A stretch of DNA of 11,797 bases from an uncultured Prevotellaceae bacterium (GTDB lineage Bacteria > Bacteroidota > Bacteroidia > Bacteroidales > Bacteroidaceae). Under the pieces are notes generated by a model, which saw nothing but the letters and a program-made list of their open reading frames with translations, did no database searches and was not told where the DNA came from. Shown here one piece after another: positions 1,174-11,797 of this stretch (the stretch's first letter is position 1; each line of letters starts with the position of its first letter). The DNA lies in NCBI GenBank assembly GCA_946405695.1, contig CAMJIA010000048.1, positions 1 through 11,797 on the forward strand, read 5' to 3'. Both the position numbers and the translations under genes were made by a program.

Positions 1174-4100
1174 ATGCTACTCAACGACTATAACGTCCAA
1201 GACGCTGAGAGATACGAAGCGGTCATCGCCAATGCCATCGAGCATCTGCCATTCACCCTATCGTACCCCATCCGCCAGCAACAGCAAGCAGTGAAGGACC
1301 AGCGCTATGGGCAGGCCATGAACCACCTGCTCGACTTCTTTGAGATATCAACACCGTTCTGTTCCTTCCTCTTCCTACGCCTGCTGCAGGGAGAGATGGA
1401 CACGAAACCTGCCATACGACCTGTGCTGGAGACCTTCGTCAACCGTATTGACCAGAAGCGTCCCTTGTCGTTTGGCGACTGGCAGAACGACTTGCTAACA
1501 CCCTTGCTAGCTGCCGCGCAGAAGTCATTAGAAGAGCATCCGCTGACCCAGAGTTTCTCAGCCCATATCTACGTTAAACGCAAGAACATACTGTTGGGTA
1601 GCAAGTCTGAGCCAAGCATCGTACAGATACGCAACGAATATAGAGGACACAGCACGACACTGTCAGAGGAAATCTATGCCGAAGTGGTACGCTCGCTGGA
1701 ACCTCGTATGCTCCGCATGCTGCAAGCCTTGGAACCGTTATGCCATTGTCGCTACGACATCCGCGAAGGATGTTACGGCATTCAGGGAGACCACATCGAC
1801 ATCGACCTCTTCCCATTGGTCTTCGTCAACGACAAGGACTACCGCTACGTCTTCCACACCCTGAAGGACGAGCAGGCTTGCTATCTCTCGTCGAACGAGA
1901 ATGCGCTGTCTTACATTTCCTACGACATGAACAGCGCCATAGACCACGACCTGCAACACATCGTCCCATCGTTCGACATCGCTAAAGACTTGAACTGGAA
2001 CGAGATACGCCAATATATGCAACGCCAGTCGGCCATCTACCTGCAACGTGTCTATGCTGAAAAGAAATACAACCAGGAGCTCTTCGTCGAACGTCAGCAA
2101 CTGACCAATGTGCTCCATCGCTTCTGGGACAGCACGTCAACACTATTTCCCCTTGTCGGTGAAGCCGGTCAGGGCAAGACCAATCAGCTCTCTTACTGGA
2201 CCGAGCAGCTCATCGCAGCTGATGAGCCAGTGCTTATCTTCAATGCCTCTGACTTCGTGGCAGCCACCCTTGACAACACCCTGAAACAGCTTTTCGGCTT
2301 TAACCTGCGCAAGGACATCAGTAGGCTGACAGACAACATCCATGCCAAGGCCGAAGAGGCTGGACACGATGTCTATATCTTCTTCGATGCCCTGAACGAG
2401 TGTCTGAAATATGCCGATGAAGAAGCTTCGGCAGAAGGTCCATTGGCCCTCTACCAAGCCATCTGCCGCCTATTTATCAACGAGCGCTACCCACGTTTCA
2501 AGGTTTTATTTACTTGTCGCGTCTTCACATGGAAGAATGTCGTGCTTCCCATGGTTGGCGAAGAGCGCATGCTATCCTTCAATACTGATTCAGAAGATGC
2601 CAAGGTGCGAGGTTTCAACCAGGAAGAAACCCAACGCGCCTATGAAATCTACCAACAGCTCTACCAGATGCACACGCCGTTCAGCGAACTGGACCGTCGC
2701 GTAACACTGCGTCTGAAAGACCCCCTGACACTGAAATTCACCGCAGGCATCTTCCTCGGACGCGACCTCGACAGCAGTCCCAACAGTTATACATCGCTGG
2801 CCCTTTACCAACAGATTGCCGAAGGCATCAGCAACTCCTACGCAGGAAATCGACAGAACGACATCATCGGGATGGTGGGCGACTACCTGCTGGACAGCTA
2901 TCTGCGAGGCGAAGCCATCGACGGCATAGCGGTAGCGGAGCTGAAAGGCGCTCTCGACGACCCCTCATCGCCGCTCTATCCACTAGCCTCACTCATCTAT
3001 AAGAAAGACGGTATCAGTATCGCCTTTGCCGAATTGCTCAATAAAGCCGAGCGACCAATCCTCAAGGAGGTCACACGCCGGACTATCCGTGGCGAGGAGC
3101 GCTACATACAGTTCATCTACGAACGCTACCTGGAATATGTGCTCAGCTGCGCCTTCCTGCGCCGTCAGCAGGACAGCACCATCAATGCCCAGACATTTGT
3201 CGACGCCCTACACCAGGGAAGGAGCAATGTGGTGTTCATCGGCACCATGCGCAATGCCCTACTCCAACACTGTCTGAAAACAGGATCGTTTGACATCATC
3301 ATAGATTTGGAAGCACAATGGGGCGAGGACTATGCCGTGATGTCGCTGGTCAACGAAAGCATCAACACCCTCATCACCGAGAACTACGAAGACGAGTTGT
3401 TTGCCTTCATGAACCAAATCATGGAGATTCAGGACGACAACGAAGCCAGCATCCTACGCTTGCGCAAACTGGCAGCGGTAAGCATTGTGAACGGCATACT
3501 GCTGACCGACTACTTCAACGAGCAACTTTACCACCACGATGCGCTGGCACTGCTGTGGAAGATAATGGCAGACCCCATCTACGACGTACGCAACGATGCC
3601 TGCATGTATTCGTACTACCTGTCGAACAACCACCACACACTGGACTATACCCCTCTTCGCGAGAACCTTACCGTTCGTATCGTCAAGGAGATGTATGCCA
3701 ATATCAAGCGCCACAACCTCATCTACAACATGGTGTCGAAGAAAGCACGTACACTGGCGCTATTCAATGTAGAGACAGCATCGCGTCTGGCCGTACTGAT
3801 GATTATCGACAGCACGCTACGACGCAAGAAAGAAGGCGACGACGGCATCGTCAGCGACATGATGGCCGAGATACGTTCCATCTTCAACTACCTGACTGCC
3901 AACCTTATGCTGATACGTCTGTTCATGCCGCTGTTCCAGATAGCCATGCGCCGACAGGTCACCTTCCAGTCGGACTATGTCAACAACGCCATGGAATACC
4001 AGACATTCTGGCAACCAGACACTTTCCGCGACCACGAATACCAAGGTTGCAAGTGGCAGCCGGCAATGGTCAAGGAAGCCATGAGTTTCTGTCACCACCA

Positions 4101-5142
4101 TGCGCGTTACGGCAACGACAACTCGTCAGCAGCATGTAAGGCAGAGGAAGAGCGCTGGCGCCAGTTGCAGCCCTTTGTGCTGTCAGCGTACAAGACGGGC
4201 GACTCATTCAGCCTCTTCGTCCTTGAGCGCATGATGATTATCATGGGCGTTTCCGACTGGAGAAACATAGAACCTATCGTCACTACGTTCTTCTCGGACG
4301 AGTTCCGCCAGACACCATGGTTTGACTATTGCCGCATGTCGATGCTCTACGTGCTCTACCAGATTGCCTCGCAGAAACGAGTTGTCAACAGGCAACTCCT
4401 CGACATCTACGCCCGTGAGGCAGAAGAGTGGACACAGACATGTCGCGGACTCTTCGTAGGACGTCGCAGCAAGGAAGCCAATGCCATTGGCAAGTACAAG
4501 CGTAACATCATGAGTTGGTATGCTGCCGTATATGTCGCCTACGCAGGCGACGGACAGACATTGGAGGGTGACGAACGTGCCGTTCCCGTTTTCTACCAAC
4601 TCATTGAGAAAGCTTTTGCCGACCACGATAAAGAGCTGCTCATCCACCTGATAGAGAACATCCAGGAACTGATAGCAGACATGGGCTACATACAGACCGC
4701 CCTGCCCCTGCTGAAAAATATCCTTGAACGGCTGGATACGCAGGCAACCATCGATGCCATAGATGCCATCAACCTGGAGCGTGGCGGCGTATATCAGTAC
4801 GACATCGTTAAGCTGATAGGTAATGTGCTGAGTACCGCCAAGCACTACTTCCCCACAGAGATTGACGCATTCATCCAGAAGGAAGTCATCGGACTCAGTT
4901 TCCCTGGTGCCAAGACCTATCGAGAGGATGTGCTGAACTACCACCCCAGCGGCGAATCACTGCAAGACGTGCTGACCCACAAGTTCGGCAACTTCCTGAT
5001 ATACTCACTACTCAACGTAGAAGCCATCGACAACTTCGCCGTCGAGGCTATCGAGGCGTCAACCAGTGCCAGCAACTCGTTTGCATGGTATGAGCAGTGC
5101 GTCAGGGTACTTGTCAAACATCTCTTCAACAAAAAGCTATGA
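1174..5142 (+). CDS. Large STAND/NACHT-like P-loop NTPase, 1322 aa
   Basis: The core NTPase motifs are clear: Walker A GEAGQGKT (residues 329-336), Walker B ending FFDALNE (403-409, Asp405), and a sensor-type strand KVLFTCR (443-449) equivalent to the hhhTSR strand of NACHT/STAND proteins. A Tyr-rich linker with LFVER precedes the P-loop, as in many STAND proteins. The N-terminal 300 residues hold a helical part (about 1-85) and a probably beta-rich part (about 190-249) that I cannot name. After the NTPase, about 560-665 looks like the winged-helix region, closing with GEERYIQFIYERYLEYV. The remaining 650 residues are helical with HEAT-like stretches, for example DPIYDVRNDA at 800, and could be a sensor surface. 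STAND ATPases are signalling switches that oligomerise on ligand binding, and many bacterial ones act in phage defence. That role here is inference. The ATG start is 3 bases after the upstream stop, and the frame is intact. Confidence 0.93.
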   Translation: MLLNDYNVQDAERYEAVIANAIEHLPFTLSYPIRQQQQAVKDQRYGQAMNHLLDFFEISTPFCSFLFLRLLQGEMDTKPAIRPVLETFVNRIDQKRPLSFGDWQNDLLTPLLAAAQKSLEEHPLTQSFSAHIYVKRKNILLGSKSEPSIVQIRNEYRGHSTTLSEEIYAEVVRSLEPRMLRMLQALEPLCHCRYDIREGCYGIQGDHIDIDLFPLVFVNDKDYRYVFHTLKDEQACYLSSNENALSYISYDMNSAIDHDLQHIVPSFDIAKDLNWNEIRQYMQRQSAIYLQRVYAEKKYNQELFVERQQLTNVLHRFWDSTSTLFPLVGEAGQGKTNQLSYWTEQLIAADEPVLIFNASDFVAATLDNTLKQLFGFNLRKDISRLTDNIHAKAEEAGHDVYIFFDALNECLKYADEEASAEGPLALYQAICRLFINERYPRFKVLFTCRVFTWKNVVLPMVGEERMLSFNTDSEDAKVRGFNQEETQRAYEIYQQLYQMHTPFSELDRRVTLRLKDPLTLKFTAGIFLGRDLDSSPNSYTSLALYQQIAEGISNSYAGNRQNDIIGMVGDYLLDSYLRGEAIDGIAVAELKGALDDPSSPLYPLASLIYKKDGISIAFAELLNKAERPILKEVTRRTIRGEERYIQFIYERYLEYVLSCAFLRRQQDSTINAQTFVDALHQGRSNVVFIGTMRNALLQHCLKTGSFDIIIDLEAQWGEDYAVMSLVNESINTLITENYEDELFAFMNQIMEIQDDNEASILRLRKLAAVSIVNGILLTDYFNEQLYHHDALALLWKIMADPIYDVRNDACMYSYYLSNNHHTLDYTPLRENLTVRIVKEMYANIKRHNLIYNMVSKKARTLALFNVETASRLAVLMIIDSTLRRKKEGDDGIVSDMMAEIRSIFNYLTANLMLIRLFMPLFQIAMRRQVTFQSDYVNNAMEYQTFWQPDTFRDHEYQGCKWQPAMVKEAMSFCHHHARYGNDNSSAACKAEEERWRQLQPFVLSAYKTGDSFSLFVLERMMIIMGVSDWRNIEPIVTTFFSDEFRQTPWFDYCRMSMLYVLYQIASQKRVVNRQLLDIYAREAEEWTQTCRGLFVGRRSKEANAIGKYKRNIMSWYAAVYVAYAGDGQTLEGDERAVPVFYQLIEKAFADHDKELLIHLIENIQELIADMGYIQTALPLLKNILERLDTQATIDAIDAINLERGGVYQYDIVKLIGNVLSTAKHYFPTEIDAFIQKEVIGLSFPGAKTYREDVLNYHPSGESLQDVLTHKFGNFLIYSLLNVEAIDNFAVEAIEASTSASNSFAWYEQCVRVLVKHLFNKKL

Positions 5143-6169: not shown

Positions 6170-7627
6170 ATGAAACAGATAAAGACAACATACCTGCTAA
6201 TAGCCATACTCTTAGGCAGTCTGGCAGCATGTAGCAAGTTGGACGATACGGAGGTAACACTCTATGACGATGCCGCCATCACCTCCTTTACGCTGGGCAC
6301 GGTAAATCGCTATGTCAACGGTGTAAAGAGCACCTTTGACGGTAGCGGATACCTCTTTCACATTGATCAGATTAGCCGTACGATCTACAATACAGACTCA
6401 CTGCCCATCGGTTCAGATGCAGCCCATATCATCTGCAGACTAACGACCTACAACAATAGTCAGGCCTACCTCATCAGTACCGACGGCGCAACGATGAAGT
6501 ATCACACGACCAGCGACAGCGTGGACTTCACCACGCCTCGCATCTTCCGTGTCTTTGCCAGCAGCGGTGCCGGTTATACCGACTTTACCGTGAAGGTCAA
6601 CGTACACAAGGAGAGCCCCGACTCTTTCGTATGGAAGAAGATGGCTGACATCCCTGTGATGACAGGTCTTCGCACCATCATGTTCAACGACCGTCTCTAC
6701 GTCTTTGGCAACGAAGGGGCTACGACCACGGCCTATACCACAGACGACGGCAGTGCATGGACCCCTGTCACACTGCCGGCCACAACCGATGCAGACAGTT
6801 GGGCGAACGCTGTAGCCACCATCGACTCACTCTACATCATGTGTGGTACGAAGGTGTATCGCACCCAGGACTTTACCACATGGGACGAGGACAATAGTGA
6901 CATCATGGACGAGACCGGCATCGAGCAACTGATTGGTGCCAGCAGTCAGGAGATATATGCACTGTCTACCAGCGGTATGCTGATGACAAAATACTGCGGC
7001 AATCTCGGCTTGGGTATGTGGATACCGGCAGACTTCGAGAGCGACGTCAATGCCGAAGACCTGCCCATCGCCGACTATACCTTCACCAGCTATCCGATGG
7101 CATATGCCGACAGCACCGACTACGTCGTGATGGGTGGCACCAAGCAGATCGGCGACGAATGGCACGGACGCGTCTGGCGTCGTATCGTAGACTATAGCGA
7201 ACAGGGTATCCTCAGCGAGCTGAAGAAGCTCATTGAACAGGCAGAATCAGGCAGCGAGACCATCAGTTCCAGCTGGATACGTCAATGGACATACATCGAC
7301 CGCACGAGTAACAGACTCTACGAACTGCCGGCACTGAAGAACCTGCAGTTGGTTTACTATGGCGACGAACTGCTGGCCTTTGGCGGTCAGTCGTATGACA
7401 ACGAGATAGCACCGCTGTCGGCCTTCTGGCGCAGTCGCGACAACGGCATCACCTGGAAGCAAGACGTGCGCTACACAATGCCTCCGATAGACGGTACAAC
7501 CGAGTTCAACAACGCAGCGACCAGTTTCTCGGCAGCTGCCGACAATGAAGGAAATATCTGGATTGTCAGCGCAGGCACTGGCGAAGTATGGCGCGGCAGA
7601 CTGAACAGAGTAGCATGGGAGCAGTAG
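6170..7627 (+). CDS. DUF6242-like lipoprotein with Asp-box motifs, 485 aa
   Basis: The start is the ATG at 6170. An in-frame TTG 63 bases upstream is part of the promoter. The N-terminus is a lipoprotein signal with lipobox LAAC, Cys21 being the lipidated residue. It is followed by SKLDDTE, an acidic stretch that in Bacteroidetes can direct lipoproteins to the cell surface. Residues about 30-150 form a beta-rich N-terminal domain (DDAAITSFTLGTVNRYV and onward) that I recognise from DUF6242 proteins. The rest looks like a beta-propeller with Asp-box-like turns: TTDDGSAW (190-197), TQDFTTW (232-238) and SRDNGITW (422-429). No catalytic residues are evident and the function is unknown. In Bacteroidales this gene sits next to DUF6089, uppS and bamA, which suggests an envelope role. 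The family assignment is from memory of the motif pattern, not from a search. Confidence 0.85.
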   Translation: MKQIKTTYLLIAILLGSLAACSKLDDTEVTLYDDAAITSFTLGTVNRYVNGVKSTFDGSGYLFHIDQISRTIYNTDSLPIGSDAAHIICRLTTYNNSQAYLISTDGATMKYHTTSDSVDFTTPRIFRVFASSGAGYTDFTVKVNVHKESPDSFVWKKMADIPVMTGLRTIMFNDRLYVFGNEGATTTAYTTDDGSAWTPVTLPATTDADSWANAVATIDSLYIMCGTKVYRTQDFTTWDEDNSDIMDETGIEQLIGASSQEIYALSTSGMLMTKYCGNLGLGMWIPADFESDVNAEDLPIADYTFTSYPMAYADSTDYVVMGGTKQIGDEWHGRVWRRIVDYSEQGILSELKKLIEQAESGSETISSSWIRQWTYIDRTSNRLYELPALKNLQLVYYGDELLAFGGQSYDNEIAPLSAFWRSRDNGITWKQDVRYTMPPIDGTTEFNNAATSFSAAADNEGNIWIVSAGTGEVWRGRLNRVAWEQ

Positions 7628-7635
7628 CGCTACGC

Positions 7636-7677
7636 TAGTGAATAGTGAAGAGTGAATAACGAAGAGTGAAAAATGAA
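7636..7677 (+). repeat. Heptanucleotide tandem array, left arm, before the DUF6089 gene
   Basis: Six 7-base units follow one another: TAGTGAA, TAGTGAA, GAGTGAA, TAACGAA, GAGTGAA, AAATGAA. A partial unit GAGTG continues to 7682. Nearly every unit contains TGA, TAG or TAA, and because 7 is not a multiple of 3 the stops fall in all frames. Bases 7636-7658 are complementary to 7716-7738 at 21 of 23 positions. The last unit (AAATGAA) contains the more upstream candidate start codon of the next gene. Confidence 0.85.
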
Positions 7678-8380
7678 GAGTGTCATGAAGAAACGGTTAT
7701 ACGTAGTAACGATACTATTCACTATTCACTGTTCACTATTCGTTAGCCACGCAGTGGCGCAGACAGAGCCGGAATACCGACTGGAGGTCGGTGGAGGCAT
7801 CGGTATGGTGTCCTATGAGGGTGACTTCAACGGTAACATCTTCAAGAATGCACAGCCTATGTTCTCGCTGCTGGCGAAATATCGGTTCAACCCACGCATG
7901 GCACTGGCCATGAATATCAGCTACGGCTCGCTGAAAGGTTCGGCAAAAGACGTTTCGTCGTATGTGCCGGAGGAATGGGCCGACTACGACTTCAAGACCA
8001 ACATCGGCGATGTGGGATTACGGCTGGAATGTAATTTCTGGCCCTTTGGAACAGGAATGGAATATCGTGGAGCCCAACGGCTCACACCATATATATTTAT
8101 AGGTTTGGGAACGACCGTCTTCAAGACCGACGAGACGCGGCTGACCATGAACATGCCTATCGGCATAGGTGTGAAGTATAAAGCTGCCAACCGTGTGAAC
8201 ATGGCGTTGGAATGGGCTATGCACTTCTCCAACAGCGACCGTCTGGACGGTGTCTCCGACCCCTATGGCATCAAGAGTTCCGGACTCTTCAAGAATACCG
8301 ACTGCTACAGTCAACTGCGGCTGTCAGTCACTTACGATTTATGGGCGAAATGTAAAACTTGTCACAATGATAGAGACTAA
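7673..8380 (+). CDS. DUF6089 / PorG-like outer-membrane beta-barrel protein, about 235 aa
   Basis: Two in-frame starts are possible: ATG 7673 (MKSVMKKR), which lies inside a heptamer repeat unit, and ATG 7685 (MKKRLYVV). The second gives a more ordinary signal peptide, and both have equally weak GAAGAG upstream. A Sec signal peptide ends around VSHAVAQ. The mature part begins [21 protein letters not shown], with alternating hydrophobic residues and aromatic strand ends (for example [21 protein letters not shown]) typical of a small eight-stranded outer-membrane barrel. The pattern and gene order fit DUF6089, related to PorG of type IX secretion; a specific secretion role is not shown. The gene ends 14 bases inside uppS, so translation of the two is probably coupled. 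The signal-peptide core is encoded by an inverted copy of the upstream heptamer repeat. Confidence 0.85.
7715..7742 (+). repeat. Heptanucleotide tandem array, right arm, inside the DUF6089 signal peptide
   Basis: Four units: CTATTCA, CTATTCA, CTGTTCA, CTATTCG. They are the reverse complement of the array at 7636-7677 and are read as the hydrophobic signal core FTIHCSLF. The third unit has G for A, giving a Cys codon (TGT) where the unmodified unit would give Tyr (TAT). Pairing with 7636-7658 would place the start codons in a loop of about 57 bases. Confidence 0.85.
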
Positions 8381-9095
8381 CAACATCCCCCAGCATATTG
8401 CCATCATCATGGACGGCAACGGACGCTGGGCCAACGAACGAGGCAAAGAGCGCAGCTACGGTCACCAGGCTGGTGTAGAAGCTGTGCGCAAGATTACGGC
8501 TGAATGTACCCGTCTGGGTGTCAAATACCTGACACTCTACACGTTCTCCACTGAGAACTGGGGACGTCCTGCCGACGAAGTAGCCGCCCTGATGGGATTG
8601 GTGCTGAGTTCGCTGGAAGACGAGATATTCATGAAGAATAATGTGCGCTTCCGTGTCATAGGCGACATGAAACGTCTGCCAGAACCCGTACAGCAAAAGT
8701 TGCGCGAGACAGAGGAGCACACTGCCAAGAACGACGCCATGACCATGGTCGTAGCGCTGAGCTACAGTAGCCGCTGGGAGATTACCGAGGCCGTTCGCCA
8801 GATGATTCAGGAAGGTGTTCAGGACATTACCGAAGAGACCATCAGCCAACACCTGACCACCAACTTCATGCCCGACCCCGACCTGCTCATTCGCACTGGC
8901 GGAGAACTGCGCATCTCGAACTACCTGCTGTGGCAGATAGCCTATTCGGAGCTGTACTTCTGCGACACCTACTGGCCCGACTTCGACGAAGCCGCCCTAC
9001 ACACGGCCATCGAGAGCTACCAGAAGCGCCAGCGCCGTTACGGAAAGACTGAAGAACAAGTGGAAGCGGCCGAAGGCCTAAATGATAATTGTTAA
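8367..9095 (+). CDS. uppS: Isoprenyl transferase / undecaprenyl diphosphate synthase (UppS), 242 aa
   Basis: This is a cytosolic cis-prenyltransferase that extends farnesyl diphosphate with isopentenyl diphosphate to make the C55 lipid carrier for peptidoglycan and surface glycans. The start is the ATG at 8367 ([20 protein letters not shown]), 14 bases before the end of the previous gene. The frame is open 39 codons further upstream, but that sequence is only the shifted reading of the DUF6089 gene. Family motifs are complete: IMDGNGRWA with catalytic Asp16, [10 protein letters not shown], and the C-terminal block [20 protein letters not shown] with the conserved Arg and Ser-Asn. The length is normal. 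The last four residues and the TAA stop (after NDNC) come from the heptamer repeat at 9079-9110 and are probably not functional. It is co-transcribed with bamA. Confidence 0.97.
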
Positions 9096-9108
9096 TTGAT
9101 AATTGATA
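9081..9108 (+). repeat. Heptanucleotide tandem array, left arm, at the uppS end
   Basis: Four units: AATGATA, ATTGTTA, ATTGATA, ATTGATA. Extended to 9079-9110, this arm is complementary to 9174-9205 at 27 of 32 positions. It contains the uppS stop codon (9093-9095) and further stops after it. It has the same 7-base period and the same layout as the repeat before the DUF6089 gene, with a related unit. Confidence 0.82.
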
Positions 9109-9129
9109 AAGAAAAATAAGAATAGCTAA

Positions 9130-11797
9130 ATGAATATGAGAAAAACATATCTGATAAAAGGATGGATGATAAGTTTATCATTTATCATTTGTCATTTATC
9201 ATTTAGCGTAAGCGCAACAGCCCAGGACATCATCATCAATCCAGACATTTCTTATGCCGGTACGCCACGCCAACTGGAAATTGGCGGACTGACCGTCAAA
9301 GGTGTTGAAGGCTATGAGGACTACGTGCTGACAGGACTGTCAGGACTGTCTGTCGGACAGGTCATCGATGTGCCAGGCCAAGACATTACGGAAGCTATCA
9401 AGCGTTACTGGAAGCATGGTTTGTTCTCAAAGGTGGCCATTTCTGCCGATTCCATCGTAGGTGACAAGGTGTATCTCTGCATCCATCTGGCCACTCGTCC
9501 GCGTGTCAGTACCATCAACTACTATGGTCTGAAGAAGTCAGAGAGGGAGGACATGGAGTCTAAGCTGGGTATCATGAAGGGTAGTCAGATTACGCCCAAC
9601 ATGATAGACCGTGCGAAGATCCTGGCCAAGAAATACTTCGATGACAAGGGCTATAACAATGCCGAGATAGAGATTACCCAGCGCGACGACGTGACGGGAA
9701 AGAACGAGGTAATCCTCGACGTCTCTGTTGACAAGAAGTCGAAGATGAAGGTCAAGGAGATTGTTTTCGACGGTAACAATAAGCTGTCGAAGAGTAAAAT
9801 TACGGGTTCGCTGTTCAAGAAGGGTGCTTTTGGCAAGATCAACGAGGTCAACAAGTTCAAGAACATGTTCAAGGCCAAGAAGTTCACGCCAGAGCGCTAC
9901 GACGAAGCCAAGACAATGCTTATTGAAAAGTATAACGAGCTGGGCTATCGCGACGCCACCATCTTGGAAGACTCTGTATGGACCGTTGACGAGAAGCACG
10001 TCAATGTCTATGTGAAGGTTGACGAGGGTGAGAAATACTACATCCGTAACATCACATGGGTGGGTAATACCGTGGTCACCACCGATTACCTGAACAGGGC
10101 GCTGGGCATGCAGAAAGGCGATGTCTATAACCAGAAGCTGATGAACAAGCGACTGAAGGAGGACGAAGATGCCGTAGGTAACTACTATTGGAACAACGGT
10201 TACCTGTTCTATCAACTGGAGCCTACCGAGGTGAACATCGTGGGCGACAGCATCGATCTGGAAATGCGTATCCAAGAAGGCACACAGGCCCATATCAGCC
10301 ACGTCCGCATCTTCGGTAACGACCGACTGTACGAGGAAGTGGTACGCCGTGAGTTGCGCACCAAGCCTGGTGACCTCTTCTCGAAGGATGCCATCCAGCG
10401 TTCTGCTCGTGAGATTGCCTCAACAGGTTTCTTCGATCCTGAGAAGGTCAATCCTGACATCAAGCCTAACTACGACGACGGTACCGTAGACATCAACTGG
10501 GAACTGGAGCAGAAATCCAACGACCAGCTGGAGTTCTCATTGGGTTGGGGACAGACAGGTATCATCGGACGTATTGGTATCAAGCTGAATAACTTCTCCA
10601 TGCGTAACCTCTTCGGTAAGAACAAGATGCACCGTGGCATCATGCCTATCGGTGATGGTGAGCAGGTGTCGCTGTCGTTCCAGTCGAACGGTACCTACTA
10701 TAGTTCTGTATCGGCAGGCTACTCTACCGGATGGTTTGGCGGAAAGCGTCCTAACGCTTTGAGCATCAGCGCTTTCTACTCTAAGCAGAGTGATATCTCC
10801 AGCACCTACCGTAACTCGGCATGGATGAACAACTACTACAGCTACTATGGAGGTTACGGCTCGTACAACAGTGGTTACTACGACTACACATCTTATATGG
10901 ATGAGGATAAATACATCAAACTGTTTGGTGTAAGCCTCGGTTGGGGTAAGCGTCTGCGCTGGCCTGACGACTACTTCCAGTTGTCAACACAGTTGGCCTA
11001 CACCCGCTATATGCTGCGTGACTGGAGCTACTTCCTCGTCTCCAACGGTAACTGTAACAACATCAACCTGGGTGTGACTCTGTCACGTACCTCAACGGAC
11101 AACCAGCTGTTCCCACGTCGTGGTTCAGAGTTCATGATGCAGGTAACCCTGACGCCACCCTGGTCACTCTTCAATGGCAAGGACTATGCTAACCTGGCCA
11201 CCGCAGAGACCTATGCGAAGAATGTCGACCAGTATAATGCAGAGTTGCAGGAGAAATACCGCTGGATAGAATACCATAAGTGGAAGTTCAAGACTAAGAC
11301 CTATACCGCCCTGACGGAAGGTCAGAAGTGTCTGGTGCTGATGACCCGCGTAGAACTCGGTCTGCTGGGCTCTTACAACAAGTACAACAAGTCACCGTTT
11401 GAGACCTTCTACGTCGGTGGTGACGGTATGAGCGGCTACAGCTCCAGCTATGCTGAGGAGACCATCGGTCTGCGTGGTTACGAGAACGGTTCACTGACGC
11501 CCTATCGTGCAGAAGGCTACGCCTACGACCGCTTTACGCTGGAGTTGCGCTATCCTATCCTGCTGGGCAACACGACCATCTACGGTCTGGGCTTCCTGGA
11601 AGGTGGTAACGCATGGACAGAGACCAAGAACTTCAATCCCTTCGACATCAAGCGTTCTGCCGGTATCGGCGTGCGTATCTTCCTGCCAATGGTGGGTCTG
11701 ATGGGTATCGACTGGGCCTACGGCTTCGACAAGCCCTACTACACCAGTACAGCGAAGGGTGGCAGCCAGTTCCACTTCATCCTGGGACAGGAGTTCT
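9130..11797 (+). CDS. bamA: Outer-membrane protein assembly factor BamA (stop codon beyond window)
   Basis: BamA is the Omp85 protein that folds and inserts beta-barrel proteins into the outer membrane. The start is ATG 9130 (MNMRKTYL) or ATG 9136 (MRKTYL). A signal peptide ends near SVSATAQ. Five POTRA domains follow, roughly at residues 48-120, 124-200, 205-297, 302-380 and 386-458, each opening with the usual strand and a G-N or similar turn (IVFDGNNKLSKSK, ITWVGNTVVTTDYL, VRIFGNDRLYEEVV). The barrel runs from about 467. The loop-6 motif is IGLRGY, with the conserved Arg at 782. Residues 567-595 form a Tyr/Gly-rich insert, and a helical, charged insert lies around 695-730. The frame ends HFILGQEF at residue 889, with Phe last as BamA requires. 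One T remains, so the stop codon very probably follows at once. Gap from uppS: 34 bases. Confidence 0.97.
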   Translation, partial: MNMRKTYLIKGWMISLSFIICHLSFSVSATAQDIIINPDISYAGTPRQLEIGGLTVKGVEGYEDYVLTGLSGLSVGQVIDVPGQDITEAIKRYWKHGLFSKVAISADSIVGDKVYLCIHLATRPRVSTINYYGLKKSEREDMESKLGIMKGSQITPNMIDRAKILAKKYFDDKGYNNAEIEITQRDDVTGKNEVILDVSVDKKSKMKVKEIVFDGNNKLSKSKITGSLFKKGAFGKINEVNKFKNMFKAKKFTPERYDEAKTMLIEKYNELGYRDATILEDSVWTVDEKHVNVYVKVDEGEKYYIRNITWVGNTVVTTDYLNRALGMQKGDVYNQKLMNKRLKEDEDAVGNYYWNNGYLFYQLEPTEVNIVGDSIDLEMRIQEGTQAHISHVRIFGNDRLYEEVVRRELRTKPGDLFSKDAIQRSAREIASTGFFDPEKVNPDIKPNYDDGTVDINWELEQKSNDQLEFSLGWGQTGIIGRIGIKLNNFSMRNLFGKNKMHRGIMPIGDGEQVSLSFQSNGTYYSSVSAGYSTGWFGGKRPNALSISAFYSKQSDISSTYRNSAWMNNYYSYYGGYGSYNSGYYDYTSYMDEDKYIKLFGVSLGWGKRLRWPDDYFQLSTQLAYTRYMLRDWSYFLVSNGNCNNINLGVTLSRTSTDNQLFPRRGSEFMMQVTLTPPWSLFNGKDYANLATAETYAKNVDQYNAELQEKYRWIEYHKWKFKTKTYTALTEGQKCLVLMTRVELGLLGSYNKYNKSPFETFYVGGDGMSGYSSSYAEETIGLRGYENGSLTPYRAEGYAYDRFTLELRYPILLGNTTIYGLGFLEGGNAWTETKNFNPFDIKRSAGIGVRIFLPMVGLMGIDWAYGFDKPYYTSTAKGGSQFHFILGQEF
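9174..9201 (+). repeat. Heptanucleotide tandem array, right arm, inside the BamA signal peptide
   Basis: Four units: TTTATCA, TTTATCA, TTTGTCA, TTTATCA. They are the inverse complement of the arm at 9079-9110 and are read as the signal core SLSFIICHLSF (residues 15-25). As in the DUF6089 case, the third unit has G for A, changing a Tyr codon to Cys. Pairing of the arms would put both candidate bamA starts in a loop of about 63 bases. Confidence 0.85.

Follow-up and report, generated by a model that had tools for sequence, protein, structure and literature searches.

The window analyzed here is a stretch of 11,797 nucleotides from an uncultured Prevotellaceae bacterium. It contains two pairs of heptamer arrays, one around the start of a gene for a DUF6089 beta-barrel protein (pair 1) and one around the start of bamA (pair 2). 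These pairs are probably short coding palindromic elements with heptamer or octamer arms, exchanged as cassettes made of the start codon and the signal peptide. The preliminary description of this DNA had suggested a common generating mechanism or a mobile repeat family. The suggestion is favored by the agreement of unit class between the two arms (39 of 43 loci), by the apparent exchange of blocks and by the recurrence of the arrays; two marks on which it had leaned, a parallel variant in the third unit and a GAWWART motif, did not survive. On the + strand of the window the genes follow in the order DUF6242 gene, DUF6089 gene, uppS and bamA, and the features are located as follows.

7625–7637, + strand: outer mini-hairpin TAGCG-CTA-CGCTA, 5′ of left array 1 (read from the sequence)
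7637–7682, + strand: left (direct) array 1, heptamers of the GAATAGT/GAAGAGT type, period 14 and 7
7673–8380, + strand: DUF6089/beta-barrel outer-membrane protein gene, ATG at 7673 (within left array 1) or 7685
7714–7741, + strand: right (inverse) array 1, ACTATTC units, signal-peptide reading TIHCSLF, unit 3 TGT (Cys)
7746–7758, + strand: outer mini-hairpin GCCAC-GCA-GTGGC, 3′ of right array 1 (hairpin scan)
8367–9095, + strand: uppS (undecaprenyl diphosphate synthase), stop codon within left array 2
9068–9078, + strand: outer mini-hairpin GGCC-GAA-GGCC, 5′ of left array 2, in uppS codons (hairpin scan)
9079–9109, + strand: left (direct) array 2, TAATTGA/TAAATGA heptamers
9130–11,797, + strand: bamA, POTRA domains, continuing past the window end, ATG at 9130 or 9136
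9174–9205, + strand: right (inverse) array 2, TTTATCA units, signal-peptide reading LSFIICHLSF, unit 3 TGT (Cys)
9206–9215, + strand: weak outer mini-hairpin GCG-TAAG-CGC (3 bp), 3′ of right array 2 (by eye; missed by the hairpin scan)

The limits of the four arrays are those returned by Tandem Repeats Finder. Left array 1 scored 87% at period 14 and 71% at period 7, and is closer to a 14-mer than to a clean 7-mer. At period 7, right array 1 reached 90%, left array 2 87% (unit TAATTGA) and right array 2 92% (unit TTTATCA). The arms of pair 1 (7634–7667 and 7714–7747) were 34 nt each, with a complementarity of 82% and a spacing of 46 nt, and those of pair 2 (9078–9110 and 9174–9206) 33 nt each, with 85% and 63 nt. 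Their scores were 22 and 23, respectively, whereas none of 3000 dinucleotide shuffles of each exceeded 16. The two pairs were mutually unrelated (cross scores of 10 and 6, same-strand scores of 7 and 7), and over the whole window, at periods 4 to 16, the threshold of 22/28 was passed at these four arrays only. The array coordinates, periods and arms given in the preliminary description were confirmed by the repeat finder and the inverted-repeat search, and so was the layout in both genes: direct array, start codon, inverse array in the signal peptide. The motif GAWWART, proposed there for both units, fared differently. Left array 2 is GATAATT-like and falls outside it, as do the units GAAGAAT, GAGAAAT, GAACAAT and the octamer AAAAGGTA of relatives, and it was rejected as a family-defining motif. 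The window segment 7000–9600 gave nothing at the Rfam gathering score, the single match reaching 19.5 bits against a cut-off of 75.

Relatives were collected with a DUF6089 protein scan, which yielded 80 Prevotella-like loci (the best 80 of 84). In what follows, L numbers designate loci of relatives, G numbers their genomes, and C numbers pieces of G001, the closest relative, which contains L001. The 81 records, most of them metagenome assemblies, totaled 787,815 bases, and all 81 contained bamA, preceded in all 81 by the end of uppS. A first pass based on gene starts left 13 DUF6089 and 6 bamA rows without a start, and the later counts were made in a fixed geometry on all 81.

The two arms of the uppS–bamA junction change together. 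The mean score of a junction's own pair was 16.8, compared with 9.9 across loci (n = 81), and 2000 permutation means did not exceed 11.46. Own pairs scored at least 16 in 42/81 junctions, compared with 10% of the cross pairs. Both arms could be assigned to a unit class in 43/81 loci and belonged to the same class in 39 of these, where 5000 permutations gave a mean of 6.7 and a maximum of 16. On a quick BamA tree, with weak support at 23 of its 78 inner forks, the minimum number of class changes was 45 for the right arm and 37 for the left, and the class of both arms changed jointly at least 21 times among the 39 concordant loci. The next exported gene, ompH (named from its Pfam family in L001), was found in 78/81 loci; both of its arms were classed in 13 and agreed in 12. 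For the DUF6089 arms the effect was small (own pairs 9.1, cross pairs 7.7, permutation maximum 8.64). The junctions with a pair measured 141–228 nt (median 168, n = 42) and those without a pair 95–212 nt (median 152, n = 39), and all ten of the shortest (95–107 nt) were without a pair. At other loci the junction is occupied by octamer pairs or by GC-rich inverted pairs. The latter, of the ACCCACCCCC...CCCCTCCCTG or CCTCCAAAGGAGG type, take the place of the heptamers around the bamA start in L065, L067, L073, L017 and L057. A clean pair of GAATAGT direct and inverse arrays was also seen downstream of bamA, at L054:10393–10524.

As judged from the sequences, the uppS–bamA block appears to be moved between species, and it is replaced as a unit whose edges are sharp. 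L002 and L004 shared 194 identical nucleotides, beginning in the terminal codons of uppS and ending in the first codons of mature BamA, with flanks that were 83% (BamA, 600 nt) and 86% (uppS, 450 nt, gapped) identical; the 400 nt upstream, compared without gaps, were 60% identical, presumably owing to an indel. The junction identity was 94% in L005/L046, with flanks at 77% and 78% (the longest exact run tried being 39 nt), and 90% in L035/L046, with flanks at 80% and 77%. In L028/L035 and L044/L045 nearly alike flanks enclosed unrelated junctions, L028 being without an array. The pairs with similar junctions come from 380 pairs with a junction identity of at least 60%, of which 90 were listed. 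In a 40% sample of pairs, junction identity was almost flat across BamA identity, with means of 0.49–0.52 from 60–70% to 85–90%, then 0.57 at 90–95% (8 pairs) and 0.50 above (2 pairs). Cassettes also matched between genes: the bamA cassette of L051 agreed with that of its own ompH at 91% over 86 nt, start codon included, that of L029 with the DUF6089 cassette of L052 at 85% over 79 nt, and that of L049 with the DUF6089 cassette of L056 at 85% over 78 nt. The matched blocks take in the start codon or N-terminal codons. This search gave 1777 matches, of which 26 were listed once length and periodicity had been filtered for. The right-arm class was common to bamA and ompH in 6/12 loci (2.6 expected, p 0.015).

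The arrays are not restricted to these junctions. In the 81 records 75 tandem arrays scoring at least 24/28 had period 7 and 30 had period 8, with multiples at periods 14 (29), 16 (12) and 21 (18). Periods 9 and 18 gave 7 and 5, periods 6, 10 and 12 one or two, and periods 4, 5, 11, 13 and 15 none. The genome-scale count was made on 1,111,181 bases of G001, about 41% of that genome, and gave 60 arrays at period 7, 14 at period 8, 6 at period 9 and 4 each at periods 18 and 22, while periods 4–6, 10–13, 15, 17, 19 and 20 yielded 0–2 each. Period 7 is thus in excess over the other periods in both samples, as in heptanucleotide simple repeats. Genes in G001 were delimited with a simple codon-usage caller, and 85 period-7 arrays scoring at least 23/28 were placed relative to them. 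The center lay 1–45 nt upstream of a start in 31 arrays (1.8 expected) and 46–150 nt upstream in 15 (2.1 expected); 8 were at most 120 nt into a gene (6.0 expected), 20 in the remaining gene body (67.0 expected) and 11 elsewhere (8.1 expected). The finding of only two arrays, or a random placement, had been named beforehand as evidence against the idea, and neither was observed. Among 66 inverted repeats in G001, 16 had period 7 or 8 in both arms; 7 of these extended across a start, 2 were wholly inside a gene and 7 were intergenic or at a gene edge. Pairs with a non-repeat core at the end of the arms, among them C4:75682 and C4:76348 inside genes, are lost with this filter. Recurrence around starts and signal peptides in many Prevotella-like genomes holds, and confinement to starts does not. 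One heptamer family was present in 16/119 genomes of the order, with a patchy spread. The peptide strings mentioned in the preliminary description do exist: SFIIYHLSF was found in L053 and L079, LFTIHCSLF in L001–L004 and LFTIHYSLF in G001.

G001 harbors further repeats. A separate octamer family, TCGAAACA/TCGAAATA, for example at C26:14075–14179 (L001:9800–9904), lies chiefly upstream of genes (12 of the 14 period-8 arrays scoring at least 24/28 in the 1.11 Mb). Heptamer arrays of about four units (TTTTCAC, TATTCAC, TTCGTAA, TTCATAA) in alike AT-rich surroundings were seen at C1:147109, C9:40083, C11:104084, C32:1054, C40:10991, C5:26850 and C26:20018, 50–105 nt upstream of starts and mainly between divergent genes; they are perhaps parts of promoters. 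A dispersed intergenic inverted-repeat family with GACAACTT-type units was found at C11:5645, C36:14248, C4:109743, C24:31030, C24:53960, C39:19294, C6:45477 and C47:45926.

Relatives of the arrays are read in frame inside enzymes. In G001 they were found in SufS, AroB, a SufB/D protein, a PglZ response regulator and others (named by Pfam), including what we take to be RsgA-like and RecF-like genes. The AroB array at residues 194–208 left the length unchanged in 14/19 ortholog rows, and that at residues 42–57 made the protein 2 residues longer than 18/19 orthologs. Inspection by eye of the G017 AroB (L158/L168) shows another inverted heptamer pair at the site of the former, with about 22 added codons. 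SufS was equal in length to 12/13 orthologs, that of G017 being one residue longer. SufB/D has a native stretch enclosed by both arms, which are missing from G017 (89% identical) and present in G016 (82% identical); at the right arm the length is as in most other orthologs. In PglZ the linker length varied so much across all orthologs that the arrays there carry little information.

A second in-frame group shares the core TTTGCTACCGC...GCGGTAGCAAA. With it, CobT is 96 nt longer than its orthologs in six other genomes. In G001 the group is in frame, with the same peptide reading, in genes with the Pfam domains of arginyl-tRNA synthetase, asparagine synthase, M3 peptidase, GH2, RND transporter, TPR, CobU and Mur ligase (a 113-residue piece), and in G044 and G045 in those of an ABC transporter, a fucosidase, GH43 and GT2. 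Eleven of 18 distinct copies were inside an open frame of at least 390 aa and seven at a frame edge or outside. The copies are palindromic around TTTGCTACCGC / GCGGTAGCAAA: the left arm and the reversed right arm agreed at a mean of 24.8/32 positions within a copy, compared with 22.4 between copies, a small gap because the units are alike. With insertion in frame in unrelated conserved open reading frames (ORFs) and with palindromic DNA, this group has the properties of protein-coding palindromic elements of the kind of the Rickettsia palindromic elements (RPE). The left core half TTTGCTACCGC occurred in 9/81 bamA junctions, and a form with one difference in 6 more, which links the cassettes at gene starts with this in-frame group.

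In both right arms of the window the third unit indeed carries an A to G change, turning TAT into TGT, and the preliminary description had taken this parallel as a sign of common origin. The reading frame explains it. The TATTCAC family is read in signal peptides as T-I-H-Y-S-L-F, with a single Tyr codon per 21 nt, and the parallel arises because the changed base sits in that codon. The middle A of the Tyr codon was replaced in 27/27 signal peptides (by G in 16, T in 7 and C in 4), and the equivalent heptamer base in 13/28 ATT and 22/53 CTA codons, by G in only 1 of the 81. In signal-peptide arrays of the TATCATT family the A was replaced in 13/18 and kept in 5/18, and in those of the TTATCAC family it was kept in 6/20. 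The three families overlap and many loci are kin by descent, so that these replacements are not independent events. Other arrays, for example in bamA of L002 and L037, are without the variant, which was rejected as a signature. The avoidance of Tyr would reflect the hydrophobicity of the signal-peptide core.

Some arrays are capped. A small GC-rich hairpin was found directly outside the array, on the 5′ side of the purine-rich strand, in 39/266 arrays (2.8% in shuffles), and on the opposite side in 12/266 (1.0% in shuffles), so that the majority are capless. The sequence of the cap varies and its pairing is kept (GGGCTTCGCCC, GGCCGAAGGCC, AGCGCTGCGCT, GCCACTGCGTGGC). On the signal-peptide side the cap is read as SPARAQ, SPVRAQ, SHAVAQ and similar strings and presumably coincides with the cleavage site; the hairpin at 7746–7758, read within SHAVAQ, would thus mark the presumed signal peptidase site of the DUF6089 protein. 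The hairpin at 7625–7637 contains the stop codon of the DUF6242 gene (7625–7627) and has a counterpart at the equivalent place in G001 (C26:9218).

In the remainder of the window, positions 1174–5142 encode a protein of 1322 residues, whose NPHP3_N (P-loop) match is weak and barely above the cut-off. The adjoining ORF 1–1170 has hydrophobic stretches at its end.

In the explanation we propose, an array pair represents a single copy of a short element with inverted repeats, whose arms are built of tandem heptamers (octamers in some species) and are sometimes capped by small GC-rich hairpins. In exported proteins it would form a cassette in which a direct array, the start codon, N-terminal codons and an inverse array serving as the hydrophobic core follow each other, with the cap at the presumed cleavage site. 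This cassette would spread by DNA copying from one species to another and, more rarely, from one locus to another, through short recombination between the conserved flanks or by a mobilizing enzyme. The arms may be made pairwise at the DNA level, by insertion or template switching, and extended by slippage in 7-nt steps. Selection would retain the readable forms only, those with no stop codon and no Tyr in the core. An effect of the hairpin on translation is possible and is not required by this scheme. The length-neutral replacements hint at templated overwriting, and the core family at insertion. A more far-reaching version, which we hold tentatively and with less than even confidence, is that of a mobile signal-peptide cassette of roughly 110–230 bp, in which convergent arrays of heptamers or octamers enclose the 5′ leader, the start codon and the complete export signal. 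It would be exchanged horizontally and between genes, bamA would keep swapping its signal peptide and leader, and sister families would insert in frame in essential enzymes.

Several observations weigh against exchanged palindromic elements. In the geometry applied, 39/81 bamA junctions had no pair of at least 16, and DUF6089 pairs were few (at least 16 in 9/81). The ten reference units defining the arm classes were picked post hoc. The own left arm was the single best partner in only 13/42 paired bamA junctions, because loci of the same class pair about equally well. The junction of L024/L026 was inherited together with its flanks, and that of L075/L076 was less similar (84%) than its flanks (98% and 96%). 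Copying within a genome appeared modest, the bamA/ompH cassette score reaching at least 50 in 1/78. In AroB and SufS the arrays stand in place of native codons, with a net change of 0–6 nt, which is easier to reconcile with overwriting than with insertion. Among 60 relatives the exact full core was present in only 4, at 25 places in total (7, 12, 5 and 1), the reversed control giving zero matches in the same 60, and the right core half GCGGTAGCAAA occurred in 0/81 bamA junctions. Filled and empty orthologs are too diverged for a target-site duplication to be read.

The search for a mobilizing enzyme also speaks against such elements, as none was found. The Y1_Tnp domain was present in 7 of 9 genomes and missing from G006 and G010, despite 28 and 5 matches to the array pattern there (31 and 2 with the reversed control; in G006 that control matches a different heptamer family, ATCACTT, and elsewhere it was rarer than the pattern). 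Arrays were found at 4 of 15 Y1_Tnp loci (six arrays), and one (L182, below the family cut-off) lay beside the gene end. A RAYT/Y1 transposase is therefore not supported as the mover. The GTAG tag of REP sequences, and of the arrangements termed REPINs, adjoined a hairpin in just 2 of 41 matches (C26:9218 and C32:13643, by eye).

The arms might instead be held together by selection for an mRNA hairpin, in which they would pair in the transcript, with a loop of about 45–65 nt around the start codon, and tune the translation of exported proteins, so that selection for pairing would drive the covariation. The two window regions do fold as RNA better than their shuffles (z of −4.26 and −4.12), the arms covary between loci, and direct arrays concentrate just upstream of starts, as described above. 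Selection on mRNA pairing predicts, however, that G-U mismatches outnumber A-C mismatches. The 51 pairs scoring at least 16 (42 in bamA, 9 in DUF6089) contained 48 G-U and 94 A-C, without any preference for wobble (24 and 33 in bamA heptamers, 11 and 45 in octamers, 9 and 9 in DUF6089 heptamers), and among heptamer loci tallied singly G-U was ahead in 11 and A-C in 12, with 13 ties. Pairs are also present in enzymes and between genes, and ten short bamA junctions do without one. RNA pairing was rejected as the sole cause on the missing wobble excess, and we regard this explanation as unlikely. Equally unlikely in our opinion is mutation in place, where slippage by 7 nt would build arrays in tolerant DNA, fold-back template switching would copy the reverse complement nearby, and nothing would move. 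The dominance of period 7 in the 81 records and in G001 agrees with it, as do the loop of pair 1, which measures 46 nt in the window and 67 nt in L001 (21 nt apart), the length-neutral arrays of AroB and SufS, and a general excess of heptamers in bacteria reported in work cited in PMC4679880. It accounts poorly for loops which, like the arrays, are common to several species and genes, for the 194-nt identity between the diverged flanks of L002 and L004, and for a single conserved core across many genes.

An inverton, whose segment between the arms would flip and switch the gene on or off, would be suggested by inverted repeats of suitable size flanking a start codon. It is highly improbable, since related junctions, where compared, showed the loop in one orientation and only 2 of 26 listed matches were on the opposite strand (L275 and L266, with arm and core and no start). 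That bamA is presumed essential also counts against it. Chance, low complexity or an assembly artifact was rejected, and we give it hardly any weight. Most records are metagenome assemblies, and of the four loci not labeled as metagenome-assembled or uncultured (L007, L012, L039 and L063), L039 and L063 were without a bamA pair of at least 16; yet L007 and L012 have one, with scores of 17 and 24. Periods other than 7, 8 and their multiples were rare (most 0–2; period 9, 7 and 6), and the shuffles always remained below the arm scores of the window.

If exchanged palindromic elements are the correct explanation, core outer-membrane genes of a common rumen lineage have exchangeable modules as their export signals and translation leaders, with a turnover faster than that of the genes themselves. 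Three separately known facts would be linked: the heptamer excess of bacteria, protein-coding palindromes and mobile sequence read as a signal peptide. With two distant arms changed jointly in dozens of orthologous junctions, many natural replicates are available, and these make the origin of the arms testable, be it template copying, an enzyme or selection for RNA pairing.

Inverse heptamer arms in signal peptides, or coding palindromes in Prevotella, did not appear in the titles and abstract beginnings of the open-licence papers retrieved by literature searches. The closest known systems are described here from the available parts of the respective papers. RPE are short palindromes found in frame in unrelated conserved genes (PMC10969869, PMC2996958). 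The core family is likewise palindromic and in frame in unrelated conserved genes. It differs by arms of tandem heptamers whose unit varies between copies and by its occurrence in another phylum, and a start-spanning signal-peptide form is additionally present here. Arrays of the heptamer TAACTGA are known from Beggiatoaceae, cyanobacteria and five Bacteroidetes (PMC4679880). They too are direct heptamers immediately upstream of starts, with stops in three frames in one direction and an open reading in the other, but they consist of one fixed unit with a single indirect repeat, and the parts of that paper at hand describe neither an inverse arm in a signal peptide nor a joint change of two arms. 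The GGGAATC arrays of Xanthomonas are dispersed, most commonly of four units, and convergent (inverted) pairs of them number 70 in one genome and 75 in another (PMC4692102). The dispersed heptamer arrays and the inverted pairs are shared features, whereas the unit there is single and G-rich, the location chiefly intergenic, and a start-spanning or signal-peptide cassette is not described in the text available. REP/REPIN elements with a RAYT are also small dispersed stem-loops, often paired (PMC3733652); the elements described here differ by long tandem arms, and neither a fixed GTAG tag nor an association with a Y1 transposase was found for them. The enterobacterial RU elements have another structure, and exchange of a single locus between species is not described in the accessible part of that report (PMC2759123). 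Each of these systems resembles the elements described here in one respect. Relative to these papers, as far as their available parts extend, what is new is the set of paired heptamer arms around start codons, with the inverse arm serving as the signal peptide, the joint turnover of the two arms and their probable exchange as a block.

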